Virus record (IMG/VR): IMGVR_UViG_3300010885_009210 | Span: 1 to 30,469 of that record | DNA from: a virus | Reading direction: 5' to 3' (one strand) | Length of the DNA: 30,469 nucleotides | In this document: positions 23,319-28,430 of the stretch, piece by piece | How the letters are laid out: every line of letters begins with the position of its first letter | Position numbering within the stretch: position 1 is the stretch's first letter | Position numbers and translations under genes: made by a program | Notes under the pieces: generated by a model | Databases searched by the model: none | What the model saw: the letters and a program-made list of their open reading frames with translations, nothing else | Told to the model about the DNA's origin: nothing

Positions 23319-26183
23319 ATGGAAGAATTAATTTCAAGAACGCCCGAAACACGGTCACTTCAATTACTTGACGAATATGAAGGATCAAATAACTACATCT
23401 TAAATTTAAAACACAAAAAACAAAATAGTAAATCGTTTACACCTACCAGGTCTCAAGCGGAGTACATTATAAATTTTCACGGTCGTACACCAAAGGTTGC
23501 AAAAAAATGGGTCAAACTCGATTCGTATTTTGGTAAAAAAATGATGGAAGAAAAAATGTATACCAAAGAACCAACAGAGATTTATGTTGAGAAACTTTTG
23601 GTTGAGAAAGATAAATCATACCATATATGGGGTAAGATATTTAGTGGTGAAACTGTTCACGATTTTTGGATACCAAAAACTGCTATCATTAAAGACAATG
23701 AAGTTAAAAATATTGTTGTCGATTATACAAAATACGACTCAAGACCACCAATGAATCACCAAAAAGAGGCGATTCAAAAGTTAGTAGGTAATAAAAAGTT
23801 TATTTTGGCGGACGATATGGGTTTGGCAAAAACAGGTTCATCAGTAATAGCTTCATTAGAATCAGGAGCAAAAAAGATTTTAGTAATTTGTCCCGCATCA
23901 TTAAAAATAAATTGGCAAAGAGAGATTAACATATATAGTAACCGTAGTGTTTATATTGCTGAAGGTAAAAAAATAGAAACTAATCACGATTATGTGATTG
24001 TTAATTATGATATTTTAAAAAACTTCCATGACATAAAAAATAAAGAAAATTCTGATATTTTAAAAGCCAATTTTGATCTTTTAATTGCTGACGAATGTTT
24101 TTCTTACGACACTAAAATAACAACAAATAAGGGTGAAATCAAAATTGGTGATATTGTTGAAAAAAATTTAGATGTGGACGTTTTGTCTTATAATCATGAA
24201 ACAAAAAAAACCGAATACAAAAAAATATTTAGAAAATTATCTAAAAAAACAGACACTATACTTCAAATTAAATTACGCAACGGAGTATTTATAGAGTGCA
24301 CACCAAACCATAAAATATATGTAAAAGATAAAGGTTATGTTAGATCAGATAAAATCAAATCAAACGACTACGTGTTTGAACTGTCAAAAATTATTAACAA
24401 AAAAACAAATAACGAAAAAAACTCAAACTTGTTCAAAATCTTGCAGCACAACATACAGATACAAAAAAAATCCACCACAAAAAAAAGAAATAGAATTAAA
24501 ACATCAAAAAGAATGTTTAAATTGTGGAGAAATAATGAAATTTCAAACACAATCACAAATGAAAAAACAAATTTGTTGTTCAATAAGTTGCGCAAGCAAA
24601 ATGAAATGGAAGAGTGTAGAAACAAGACAGAAGTGGAAAAATTCTATGAAAAAACACAATATGTCAGAAAAAATGAAAGAAGTGCACAGGAACAATCCAA
24701 ATATAAGACTGAAATCATCGGAAAGGATGAAAAAAAACAACCCAATGTTCAATTTGGAGTCATTGGAAAAAATGAAAAAATCTTTAAAGGGAAAAACTTT
24801 TTTATCAAGAGGGGGGAACGGGAAATTAACGAAACAACAAAAAAAATTATACGAATCTTTAGGTCAGGGTTGGGAAATGGAGTATACTATTTTAACAAAG
24901 GGTTATATTGGAAATCAAAAAAGTTTACCAAATCACTACAACGTAGATATTGCCAATTCAAAACTGATGTTGATTATAGAAATAGATGGGAAAAGTCACA
25001 AACTGAAAAAATGGAAATTTATAGACAAAAGGAAAACAGAAATATTGACTTCATTAGGGTGGAAAGTGTTGAGGTTTTGGAACGAGGAAATAGACAACAA
25101 CATAATGGGATGTGTAGAAAAAATACAAATGTGTATGATTTAGAAATTGTGGATAATCACAATTATTTCGCAAATGGTATTTTAGTTAGTAATTGCCATG
25201 TTGTAAGTAACCCCCAAGCACAAAGAACAAAAATTGTTAATGATCTATGTGATAAAATTGATAGGGTTTGGTTATTGACGGGAACACCAATGACCTCAAG
25301 ACCGATGAACTATTTTAATCTTTTGAGTTTAGTTGAGAGTCCTGTTGCATCAAATTGGATGGCTTATGCAAAAAGATACTGCAACGGATTTCAATTTAGT
25401 GTTGGTAAAAGAAAAATTTGGAACGTTACTGGAGCATCAAACTTAGATGAGTTAAGGGAACGAACACAATCACACATTCTTAGGAGACTAAAAGAAGACG
25501 TTTTAGATTTACCCGATAAAATTATTACACCCGTTTATTTAAGATTAAAGTCTAAAGACTATGAAGAACTTATGGGTGAATACTATGATTGGTACGACAA
25601 AAACCCTGATGAATCCGGATCATTGACCATCCAATTTGGTAAATTGATGAAGGTTAGAAAAGTTATTGCCGAAGAAAAAGTTAAAAATACTATTGAGTTG
25701 GCTGAGAACATTATTGAGCAAGGAAAAAAAGTTATCATATTTACAAACTTTACAGATACATTACGTGCTATTTATAACCATTTTGGAAAAAGTGCGGTTT
25801 ATTTAGATGGGTCTTGTTCAAAACCTCATCGACAAAAATCTGTGGATGATTTTCAAGAGAATGATAAAATTAAAGTGTTTGTTGGAAACTTAAAGGCTGC
25901 GGGTGTTGGTATTACTTTAACATCGGCTGAAGCGGTTATTATGAATGATTTGTCGTTTGTGCCGGCAGAACACGCACAGGCAGAAGACCGATCACATAGA
26001 ATAGGTCAAAAAAATTCAACATCAGTTTACTATCCCCTTTTTGAAAATACTATAGAGGGTGCGATCTACAACATCTTAAATAGAAAGAAAAAAATTATAT
26101 CCACAGTTATGGGAGATGACCTGTTATTGGACGACGCATCTTCAATAGAAGAAATGTTAAAAATAATTTCTAATGGTAGGTGA
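23319..26183 (+). CDS. SNF2-family DNA helicase/ATPase interrupted by an intein
   Basis: 954 residues as translated, about 588 after splicing. Motifs in order: LADDMGLAKT (Walker A, K171; GLAKT instead of the usual GLGKT), CPASLKINW (Ia), VIVNYDIL, LLIADE|CH (motif II, split by the intein after E259), LLTGTP (about 652-657, III), a C-terminal lobe with KVIIFTNFTDTL, and QAEDRSHRIGQ (887-897, motif VI). This is an SNF2/SMARCAL1-like set, so it probably translocates on or remodels branched DNA during phage replication or repair, a role like T4 UvsW. The start is ATG 23319; the frame is open further upstream, but that stretch overlaps the gp14-like gene on the other strand and precedes the box. 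First gene of the plus-strand operon. Confidence 0.9.
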   Translation: MEELISRTPETRSLQLLDEYEGSNNYILNLKHKKQNSKSFTPTRSQAEYIINFHGRTPKVAKKWVKLDSYFGKKMMEEKMYTKEPTEIYVEKLLVEKDKSYHIWGKIFSGETVHDFWIPKTAIIKDNEVKNIVVDYTKYDSRPPMNHQKEAIQKLVGNKKFILADDMGLAKTGSSVIASLESGAKKILVICPASLKINWQREINIYSNRSVYIAEGKKIETNHDYVIVNYDILKNFHDIKNKENSDILKANFDLLIADECFSYDTKITTNKGEIKIGDIVEKNLDVDVLSYNHETKKTEYKKIFRKLSKKTDTILQIKLRNGVFIECTPNHKIYVKDKGYVRSDKIKSNDYVFELSKIINKKTNNEKNSNLFKILQHNIQIQKKSTTKKRNRIKTSKRMFKLWRNNEISNTITNEKTNLLFNKLRKQNEMEECRNKTEVEKFYEKTQYVRKNERSAQEQSKYKTEIIGKDEKKQPNVQFGVIGKNEKIFKGKNFFIKRGEREINETTKKIIRIFRSGLGNGVYYFNKGLYWKSKKFTKSLQRRYCQFKTDVDYRNRWEKSQTEKMEIYRQKENRNIDFIRVESVEVLERGNRQQHNGMCRKNTNVYDLEIVDNHNYFANGILVSNCHVVSNPQAQRTKIVNDLCDKIDRVWLLTGTPMTSRPMNYFNLLSLVESPVASNWMAYAKRYCNGFQFSVGKRKIWNVTGASNLDELRERTQSHILRRLKEDVLDLPDKIITPVYLRLKSKDYEELMGEYYDWYDKNPDESGSLTIQFGKLMKVRKVIAEEKVKNTIELAENIIEQGKKVIIFTNFTDTLRAIYNHFGKSAVYLDGSCSKPHRQKSVDDFQENDKIKVFVGNLKAAGVGITLTSAEAVIMNDLSFVPAEHAQAEDRSHRIGQKNSTSVYYPLFENTIEGAIYNILNRKKKIISTVMGDDLLLDDASSIEEMLKIISNGR
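24286..24293 (+). promoter_or_regulatory. TATTTATA inside the intein, upstream of the nested endonuclease
   Basis: Exact plus-strand copy, 43 bases before the ATG of the nested endonuclease, a spacing not far from those of the tube and sheath genes. It is also coding sequence of the intein (VFIE), so it could be chance; about three other exact copies lie inside genes. Confidence 0.25.
24337..25143 (+). CDS. Homing endonuclease (Vsr/DUF559-like) nested out of frame inside the intein
   Basis: 268 residues, read +1 relative to the helicase/intein frame and lying wholly inside the intein. Two zinc-finger-like units: C13-x2-C16...C32-x3-C36 and C60-x2-C63...C81-x3-C85. A Lys/Asn/Met-rich middle (about 95-160) with NUMOD3-like repeats (ERMKKNNPMFNLESLEKMKK, then LKGKTFLSRGGNGKLT). 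A PD-(D/E)xK/Vsr-like nuclease domain: E180/E182, YNVDIAN (D204), EIDGKSH (D217, H221), D230, and GWKVLRFWNEEI. This set fits the EDxHD homing endonucleases found near split inteins. ATG 24337 is the only ATG before the first finger; AAAGG lies 2 bases upstream and a TATTTATA 43 bases upstream. The stop falls within intein block F. It would cut intein-free helicase alleles to spread the intein. Confidence 0.85.
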   Translation: MLDQIKSNQTTTCLNCQKLLTKKQITKKTQTCSKSCSTTYRYKKNPPQKKEIELKHQKECLNCGEIMKFQTQSQMKKQICCSISCASKMKWKSVETRQKWKNSMKKHNMSEKMKEVHRNNPNIRLKSSERMKKNNPMFNLESLEKMKKSLKGKTFLSRGGNGKLTKQQKKLYESLGQGWEMEYTILTKGYIGNQKSLPNHYNVDIANSKLMLIIEIDGKSHKLKKWKFIDKRKTEILTSLGWKVLRFWNEEIDNNIMGCVEKIQMCMI

Positions 26184-26191
26184 TATTTATA
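26184..26191 (+). promoter_or_regulatory. TATTTATA box before the peptidase-SOD gene
   Basis: Exact plus-strand TATTTATA directly after the helicase stop, followed by AACA and the ATG. Confidence 0.45.
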
Positions 26192-26195
26192 AACA

Positions 26196-27284
26196 ATGGA
26201 AGTGAATACTAAATATAACGGAGACACCACAAAAGAACAAAAAGACTTAATTAATAAATTTGTTGAGTTTTTAAAAAAAGAACTACCACTTAAAGATGAT
26301 GTGGAAATTGATTTTTTAAATCAGAGAACAGGAAAAATGACTACCGGTAGTAGAACCGACACTCATCGTTTAAAAATATTAGTTAAAGACAGATTAAATA
26401 GGGACATATTAAAAACCTTATCTCACGAATGGCATCACGAATACCAAAGAACGGTTTTAAAAAGAAAAAAAGGCCCGAATATCGGGGGTAAAAACGAAGA
26501 CGAAGCAAATGCGAAGGCCGGTGAGTTAATGAAAAAATTTGAACAAAAAAACAAAGAGAAAATAAAATCTGTTTACAAACCATTTCAAAATAAGATCAAT
26601 GAATTGGAGATTAAATTAAATGAAGATTTAATTTCACATAAAAATATTATTTCAGAAATAAAAAGTATAAGTGTTGAAAAATTACCTTACGATTATAACT
26701 CTGTAGAGGGGTTTATAGATTCAGAAACAATGAAAACTCACTACACAAAACATTATAAGGGGTATGTTGAGAAATTAAATATAGAGTTAGAAAAGGTTAA
26801 AGGTCCTGATTTGGATATTGAGTCAATCATTAAAAAAATATCTAAATTTAATGATAAAGTTAAAAATAATGGTGGTGGGGCATTTAATCACGCATTATTT
26901 TGGAAAATGTTATCCCCAACGAAACAAGAAATAAAAGACCCAATCAAAAGTAAAATAGAAAAAACTTTTGGTTCTATAGATAAATTTAAAGAGAAATTTG
27001 AAGAGGAAGCAAAATCCCGTTTTGGTTCCGGTTGGGTTTGGTTAATATTAACAAAAAATAATACTTTAAAAATAGTCACCACACCAAATCAAGATAACCC
27101 TCTGATGAATACTGAAAAAATACTGGGGTACCCCATATTGGGTTTAGATGTTTGGGAACACGCTTATTACCTAAAATATAAAAACCAAAGAGACAAATAC
27201 GTTAAAAACTTTTGGAAGGTTGTTAATTGGTCGTTTGTAAATGATTTATACACAACCCAAATAGAAAGAAACAAATCAAAATAA
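26196..27284 (+). CDS. Fusion of an HEXXH metallopeptidase-like domain and a Mn-type superoxide dismutase
   Basis: 362 residues. N-terminal domain (about 1-115): a helix carries SHEWHHEY, giving HEXXH H77-E78-xx-H81, followed by EDEANAKA (E101/E103, possible third zinc ligand), as in minimal zincin peptidases. A Lys/Glu-rich helix (116-160) joins it to a full Fe/Mn superoxide dismutase (161-356): LPYDYNSVEGFID, HYTKHYKGY, NNGGGAFNHALFWKML, FGSGWVWL, TPNQDNPL, LGLDVWEHAYYLKY. Metal ligands H182, H232, D318 and H322 are present, as are gateway Y190, H186 and W320. Gln299 in NQD and the GGG before H232 point to the manganese type. It has no signal peptide, so superoxide would be removed in the cell or possibly in the virion. 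It lies 12 bases after the helicase and 27 before a neck gene. The protease function is less certain than the SOD. Confidence 0.88.
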   Translation: MEVNTKYNGDTTKEQKDLINKFVEFLKKELPLKDDVEIDFLNQRTGKMTTGSRTDTHRLKILVKDRLNRDILKTLSHEWHHEYQRTVLKRKKGPNIGGKNEDEANAKAGELMKKFEQKNKEKIKSVYKPFQNKINELEIKLNEDLISHKNIISEIKSISVEKLPYDYNSVEGFIDSETMKTHYTKHYKGYVEKLNIELEKVKGPDLDIESIIKKISKFNDKVKNNGGGAFNHALFWKMLSPTKQEIKDPIKSKIEKTFGSIDKFKEKFEEEAKSRFGSGWVWLILTKNNTLKIVTTPNQDNPLMNTEKILGYPILGLDVWEHAYYLKYKNQRDKYVKNFWKVVNWSFVNDLYTTQIERNKSK

Positions 27285-27311: not shown

Positions 27312-28430
27312 ATGGCCACATCAATTATTCAAGAACCAGATAGAGGTAAACTCTATAAAAGAATTAGAAATCTTTTGGGGGCTCCGTTGAGGGGTGTTGA
27401 ACTAGAGGATGAAATGATGGATTCTTTATTGGAATTATCTATTCAAGATTATTCCCAACACGTTAATGATTGGTTGATTGAAAGCCAATGGTCGTCTTTG
27501 TACGGTTTAAATTTAGATGAACAATCTGTAACACGGGCGTTTACAACAAGAAGTTTGGATTGGGAAACGCAATACACTTATTCATACTCTAAAATTGTAG
27601 GGTTACAAGCCGGAGGAGATTACGTTTTAAAGAAAGATTATATAGACTTAATACATAATCAACAAATTTATGAAATTCCTGCGGGTAGGGAACTTAACGA
27701 ATTGTTATGGTTCTCAAGATCAGAATTGGATGCAGCATATTTTGACCCGTTTATGGGTGGGTTTGGTGGATTTGGTGGAATTGGTCTTGGTGGTGGTGCT
27801 GGTTTTTCTCAAATGGGAACAACAGGAAATTATTTTATAACGCCAGCATTTGATATATTATTAAGGATGCAAGACATCAATATTAAACGAAGAATTATTA
27901 CGGGAGAATTAACGTATAGGGTTACCGCATTACCTGAAGGTAAAAAAGCGTTACATTTAATGAATGTTCCTGGTGGGAAATTTGATTTTGGAAATATCAA
28001 ATATCAAGGATATCGAGTATGGTATTGGTATTACGATACTTTCGATAGAGAAGATTGTTTAAAGAAAAACCCCGATATTGTAAGATTGCCGTCAGACGTT
28101 CCTATTGATGAGACCCGTTGGGATGAGTTAAATTCACCCGCACAGACTTGGGTTCGTAGATGGTTTACCGCTTATTGTAAAGAAACTTTAGCGAGAGTTA
28201 GAGGAAAATATAGTGGTAATTTAAAAACACCTGATACTGAAATTACATTAGAGTATACGACCTTACAATCCGAAGCGAAAGATGAAAAAACTATGTTGTG
28301 GGAAGAACTTAAAACAAGACTTGAAAGGTTAAGACCAGAAAAACAGTGGGAAATTAAAGGTGCTATGGCTGAAAATATGAATAAATCATTAAAATACAGA
28401 CCATTTACAAGTCCATACAATGTGATATAA
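27312..28430 (+). CDS. Neck/head-tail adaptor protein (gp13-like, tentative)
   Basis: 372 residues. The N-terminus RGKLYKRIRNLLGAPLRGVE followed by EDEMMDSLLELSIQDYSQHV resembles the helical core of head-tail adaptor proteins. A glycine-rich loop (GGFGGFGGIGLGGGAGF, about 148-166) follows, then an aromatic-rich region (YQGYRVWYWYYDTFDRED) and a helical C-terminal third with PAQTWVRRWFTAYCKETLAR and RGKYSGNLKTPDTEITLE typical of T4-like virion neck proteins. T4 gp13 has 309 residues and sits beneath the portal. It follows the peptidase-SOD gene by 27 bases. The gp14-like partner is on the opposite strand about 4 kb away, unlike the adjacent genes 13 and 14 of T4. Confidence 0.6.
   Translation: MATSIIQEPDRGKLYKRIRNLLGAPLRGVELEDEMMDSLLELSIQDYSQHVNDWLIESQWSSLYGLNLDEQSVTRAFTTRSLDWETQYTYSYSKIVGLQAGGDYVLKKDYIDLIHNQQIYEIPAGRELNELLWFSRSELDAAYFDPFMGGFGGFGGIGLGGGAGFSQMGTTGNYFITPAFDILLRMQDINIKRRIITGELTYRVTALPEGKKALHLMNVPGGKFDFGNIKYQGYRVWYWYYDTFDREDCLKKNPDIVRLPSDVPIDETRWDELNSPAQTWVRRWFTAYCKETLARVRGKYSGNLKTPDTEITLEYTTLQSEAKDEKTMLWEELKTRLERLRPEKQWEIKGAMAENMNKSLKYRPFTSPYNVI

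Follow-up and report, generated by a model that had tools for sequence, protein, structure and literature searches.

The window, a 30,469-nucleotide stretch of viral DNA (IMG/VR record IMGVR_UViG_3300010885_009210), encoded on its plus strand a protein of 362 amino acids (positions 26196–27284) made up of an N-terminal zincin domain, a linker and a Mn-type superoxide dismutase (SOD). On the same strand, an SNF2-type helicase gene was located upstream (23319–26183) and an Ad2-like neck or head-tail adaptor gene (phrog_211) downstream (27312–28430), which agrees with the gene order given in a preliminary description of this DNA. The fused genes of relatives at IMG/VR loci were flanked by the same helicase and neck genes. 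The neck gene adjoined the SOD gene in all loci, except for small genes between the two in some of them. The gene is best read as belonging to an uncultured, large-genome T4-like phage lineage, and its carriers are large phages of fresh water that form a widespread group. The helicase gene contained an intein-like insert (approximately 24129–25193), which matched the intein-type family PF14890 below the cut-off. Few relatives had this insert; most lacked it, and the insert-free homologues were about 587 amino acids long.

The SOD domain (26670–27254, plus strand; residues 159–353) was unambiguously assigned to the Fe/Mn SOD family (PF00081 and PF02777) as a Mn-type member that is predicted to be catalytically complete. 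Both Pfam domains scored far over their curated cut-offs (Sod_Fe_N: E = 9e-21, 74.5 bits, cut-off 27; Sod_Fe_C: E = 6e-42, 142.2 bits, cut-off 20.9) in the domain search that the preliminary description had proposed. MnSODs of known structure, for example the enzyme from Sphingobacterium sp. T2, were about 47% identical to the SOD half, and VIA-align superposed the two with a Z-score of 27.9 (rmsd 2.0, 204 residues aligned). The four metal ligands (H182, H232, D318 and H322), Gln299 and gateway Tyr190 were all as listed in the preliminary description. The ligands and Tyr190 were kept in 51 of 51 non-redundant SOD-carrying relatives, and the Mn-type Gln299, which aligned to TPNQDNPLM of MnSOD, in 50 of the 51. 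Fold, metal ligands, Mn-type glutamine and gateway tyrosine are common to the phage domain and the bacterial enzyme (Sphingobacterium sp. T2, 5A9G/6GSC). In contrast to the latter, the phage SOD is phage-encoded, adjoins a neck gene and follows a leader or linker that carries [ILV]xE motifs; many phages have a zincin in front of it as well. One copy of the SOD gene was present in each of 16 large relatives (up to 304 kb), in which a search for further SOD or zincin homologues gave a single marginal match (E = 8.5e-4, in G008). SOD had been described as rare in tailed phages, which is wrong for freshwater, as SODs of freshwater phages have already been reported (PMC6802176). These and the SOD of PA5oct-like jumbo phages, which was about 28% identical, likewise represent the SOD fold in a tailed phage; no fusion is described for either in the literature consulted.

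The N-terminal domain (26196–26564, plus strand; residues 1–123) was predicted with AlphaFold2 to be a gluzincin-like zincin. It carried the zinc-binding motif HEWHH (26424–26438, plus strand; residues 77–81, with H77, E78 and H81) and a candidate third zinc ligand, E101 (26496–26498, plus strand), in the spacing HExxH-x19-E (x18 in the cyanophage homologue). H77, E78, H81 and E101 were invariant in 69 sequences, stand-alone cyanophage homologues included. Since a structure search with the whole model returned SODs throughout, the zincin domain was folded and searched alone. The resulting model was confident (pLDDT 92.9, pTM 0.87) and placed HExxH on a helix (residues 68–86). Most of its nearest solved structures in VIA-align were zincin metalloproteins (YbeY-type, M1 aminopeptidases, Wss1, M30) with Z-scores of 8–10, which are moderate and only moderately above the common background, but the matches came from one superfamily and covered the whole domain. 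Foldseek against the PDB gave no match at E 0.001 or better, and residues 1–123 had no match of their own in Pfam, NCBIfam or PHROG. Profile comparison with named peptidase families (M78/ImmA-IrrE, SprT, M1) was likewise negative, the best PDB profile match being Spartan (E = 0.64). The minimal gluzincin or SprT-like metallopeptidases (M1 catalytic domain, Wss1, M30) share HExxH, a downstream glutamate and an alpha/beta core with the phage zincin; unlike them, the phage domain comprises only about 123 residues, is at most about 16% identical and has no family profile match. The model places the HEWHH helix in a zincin-like fold, as had been proposed from the motif, and this gluzincin-like fold appears to lie outside the named peptidase families searched (Pfam, NCBIfam, PHROG). 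A homologue of the zincin half (38.7% identity, HExxH and glutamate present) was the hypothetical protein QPX48222.1 (132 amino acids) of Synechococcus phage S-SRM01, which, unlike the fusion, is a stand-alone gene in another neighbourhood. The zincin fold also matched parts of two phage proteins in BFVD, A0A6J5M1C6 and A0A6J5MCV5, whose annotations are amidoligase and cytidyltransferase-like, a hint that this zincin may be joined to several enzymes.

The same fusion was found in many IMG/VR contigs with identities of about 50–100%. Classification of 330 loci yielded 112 distinct fused open reading frames (ORFs) and 68 stand-alone zincins of 128–147 amino acids, the latter from freshwater T4-like phages and cyanophages. 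One locus (L207) encoded a zincin with a different C-terminal domain and without SOD. The preliminary description had taken separate genes in relatives as a possible sign that the fusion was an artefact. Such an arrangement was seen in one of the 330 loci (L248), where zincin and SOD are separate, overlapping genes. In general, the joining of two genes through a sequencing or assembly error or a mis-called frame is refuted by the 112 distinct fused ORFs from independent metagenomes, and we consider its probability negligible. Pairwise dN/dS was 0.04–0.32 for the zincin and 0.02–0.12 for the SOD, mostly below 0.2, consistent with both halves being under purifying selection. No full-length match to the fusion was present in 50,697 phage records, and a scan of genome contigs with narrow patterns for a cellular source of the whole fusion returned only three ordinary SODs. 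PADLOC assigned the fusion gene to no defence system. The claim that the fusion was undescribed held as far as the literature was searched, in which no phage SOD-zincin fusion, modularity of such a fusion or SOD in phage virions was found. Freshwater phage SODs and jumbo-phage zincins were already known; the fusion and its modularity are, within the same search, new. Five unannotated phage records (OR850395, OR846594, OR845917, OR851122 and OR846937), several of them very short, contained SODs resembling those of their namesake bacteria and look like host contamination.

In a search begun from the neck gene, 48 of 80 relatives had the fusion, and the other 32 had, in the same place, an SOD lacking the zincin. 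The zincin state changed at least 10 times on the SOD-domain tree (at least 8 changes being forced by strongly supported branches, SOD-only group), a quick tree on which gain and loss of the zincin are not distinguishable. Relatives L434 and L034 had identical SOD sequences, with a zincin in one alone. In-frame deletion of the zincin was found in phages near-identical to the window, namely in L050, which equals L387, and in L388 from a different metagenome. The SODs of L108 and L056 were 98% identical and their zincins 65% identical (synonymous divergence 0.34 versus 1.31), a mismatch that points to recombination between zincin and SOD.

Many members of a more distant clade had C-terminal additions of about 100–600 residues, which fell into three families (examples: L114:6087-7136, L139:6087-7193 and L155:6063-7070). 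No similarity of these families to one another and no convincing Pfam or PDB match was detected; profile comparison found the pairs A4/A6 and A4/A5 to be unrelated. Weak PD-(D/E)xK-like motifs (GQD...QVKP; PFDV...SCK) were suggestive, and an assignment of the modules as PD-(D/E)xK nucleases was rejected for want of a convincing database match. L248 carried a further C-terminal type beyond the three families. Some relatives had a small domain (ALKWLNKKFGDLTPV...FYV) between the SOD and the C-terminal module (L161:3391-5181, L119:6084-7460), which was duplicated in L161. Because the zincin and the C-terminal modules vary around the SOD at one site, the SOD is the constant core of the protein, the zincin an optional N-terminal module and the three unrelated families optional C-terminal modules. 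The idea that zincin and SOD act as a metal-linked pair was not supported, since the two are gained and lost independently of each other.

For a zincin-like metallopeptidase of group 1 jumbo phages, a part in virion maturation has been suggested (PMC7824862). Together with the neck gene as the constant neighbour, this raises the question of whether the zincin serves head or neck assembly as a second protease of virion maturation, with the SOD fold retained as a scaffold for structure or metal binding. We regard this as improbable. The zincin was missing from 32 of the 80 relatives, which have the same neck gene, and was deleted in frame in L050, L387 and L388; assembly is therefore not generally zincin-dependent. 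A scaffold would, moreover, have no need of the SOD catalytic residues, all of which are invariant.

A late-promoter-like motif, GATATTTATA, was located directly before the start codon of the fusion gene (26182–26191, plus strand). Of 61 relatives, 58 had a relaxed form of it upstream of the SOD gene, in most cases at −12 (4–7% expected by chance). In the 304-kb relative G001 (L341–L356), TATTTATA was found within 60 nucleotides upstream of 50 of the 365 ORFs, where about 4 were expected, and sheath, tube and protease genes were among them. In the window it was positioned before the sheath, tube, baseplate, neck, helicase and SOD genes (773, 13339, 16840, 21258 and 23264 on the minus strand; 23306, 26184 and 27290 on the plus strand). 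The whole-window count of the exact 10-mer GATATTTATA was not above chance, and the enrichment concerned only its placement upstream of genes. The TATTTATA motif is likely the late promoter of the lineage.

The linker (26565–26669, plus strand; residues 124–158) was rich in [LI]xE motifs and contained a predicted prohead-protease site, ISE|I (26649–26660, plus strand; residues 152–155), 9 residues before the LPY motif of the SOD. At this distance from LPY, glutamate was present in all 61 fused representatives (proteins less than 85% identical to one another) and was preceded two residues earlier by isoleucine, leucine or valine. The residue between was free to vary (T, L, S, N, V or M). Five control families from these phages, among them the helicase, neck and polymerase, had no comparable site, taken as a conserved [LIV]xE whose P2 residue was of four or more kinds; the controls were more conserved and had fewer non-redundant sequences and hence less room for a variable P2. 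In the model, the [ILV]xE motif fell in a segment with pLDDT below 50 (residues 141–160). SOD-only forms kept a leader of roughly 29–40 amino acids that ended in [ILV]xE in 17 of 17 cases and contained 2.8 such motifs, compared with 1.1 expected by shuffling. A secretion signal was rejected for the leader, which had no hydrophobic core (maximum mean Kyte-Doolittle value over 12 residues: 1.15). At the junction between the SOD and the C-terminal module, [LI]xE was present in 31 of 31 long forms (e.g. LLNEA, IISEA, VITEA), often followed by alanine or serine.

This pattern is that of the T4 prohead protease gp21, which cuts Alt after ITE-6 and LTE-619 (PMC5694885); LIE-9 of gp21 also fits the gp21 logo (PMC9026906). 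Contigs of 8 relatives extended over the head genes and encoded Peptidase_S77 (gp21, PF03420) and gp23; 7 of these relatives had a fusion-type gene and 1 (G014) a stand-alone zincin. The gp23 N-termini of relatives contained LINE|AA at the T4-type position. The window fragment contained no prohead protease gene, and we infer a gp21-type protease for its phage from these relatives. The structural alignment matched model residue 152 with the first residue of E. coli MnSOD, and a cut after E154 would therefore leave a near-native SOD N-terminus. The P1' residue of the conserved site was methionine or isoleucine, compared with alanine at the capsid site. As the motif abuts the SOD domain, it could instead be a structural feature.

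These observations led us to propose, with a probability of about 0.45, that the gene encodes a late, head-packaged modular protein with the SOD as its core, processed by the prohead protease. The leader or linker would carry the protein into the prohead core, where the gp21-type protease would cut after [LI]xE, so that the SOD is released with an almost native N-terminus and the flanking modules come free. The products would stay inside the head and pass into the next host together with the DNA. There, the SOD may clear superoxide from the cell just infected, unless it serves to protect the packaged DNA, and the zincin may cut host or phage proteins. Cleavage, packaging and injection, as well as the removal of superoxide from the new host and proteolysis by the zincin, are steps that we infer from sequence patterns. 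The swappable modules would then be injected payloads, analogous to the T4 internal proteins. This full form of the proposal, a head-packaged polyprotein of an SOD core and swappable modules that is cut apart in the capsid and injected together at time zero, is put forward tentatively, with a little more reserve. The preliminary description had named carriage in the virion as one possible role; prohead-protease-type motifs absent from that description now favour it, short of establishing it. Against the packaged reading counts that the "propeptide" of the fused forms would be a whole folded domain, for which there is no exact T4 precedent; the lack of the N-terminal tag borne by about 20 other proteins of G001 also speaks against it.

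The main alternative is an uncleaved, cytosolic and late-expressed bifunctional enzyme, in which the SOD defends against reactive oxygen species, the zincin performs a separate proteolysis and the fusion merely co-regulates the two. Freshwater phage SODs have been interpreted in this way, as such a defence of the infected host (PMC6802176), and the intact active sites and SOD signature residues, the purifying selection on the modules and the promoter-like motif upstream would all be expected of such an enzyme. It leaves unexplained why [ILV]xE is strictly placed whether or not a zincin is fused, why the motifs are paired at the junction with the C-terminal domain and why a leader of roughly 29–40 amino acids is kept after zincin loss. 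We regard it as a serious possibility, if not a probable one.

The packaged reading resembles what is known of T4, whose internal proteins are diverse and have a conserved targeting peptide (PMC3012670). With the T4 internal head proteins and Alt, the phage SOD gene appears to share a gp21-type protease (here in relatives), [LI]xE at the leader boundary, a late-type promoter motif and diverse modules around a kept leader. It differs from them in having no homologous CTS, in a leader that may be a whole zincin and in having an SOD as the core module. The likeness is drawn at the level of sequence, from which packaging is here predicted. If the packaged reading is true, this would be, to our knowledge, the first virion-delivered superoxide dismutase; we know of no earlier one. 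The T4 internal-protein principle of a conserved targeting peptide and variable cargo would then also hold for polyproteins of several enzymes that are processed within the head, and it would become testable whether superoxide is a threat, or a part of host defence, during the earliest minutes of an infection. Even without packaging, a widespread uncultured phage lineage keeps an SOD at a fixed site while the flanking enzymes are exchanged.

A homologous capsid-targeting tag was rejected for the protein. The N-terminal tag MKKVIRLTESDL...INE of about 20 other G001 proteins was absent from it in a profile scan, the profile of the G001 tags giving no support. In G001 itself, about 20 small proteins carried the tag MKK[VI]I[RK]LTES[DE]L[TV]RIV[KR]RVI[NK]E, almost only at the N-terminus (examples: L341:13668-13961, L344:3380-3697 and L346:10153-10674). 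The tag looks like a capsid-targeting propeptide and could be the label of numerous packaged proteins. In a G001 gene a short way downstream of that for the major capsid protein (L348:1671-2966), the same tag was internal to the encoded protein (LTESELVRIVKKILNE, residue 297 of 432).
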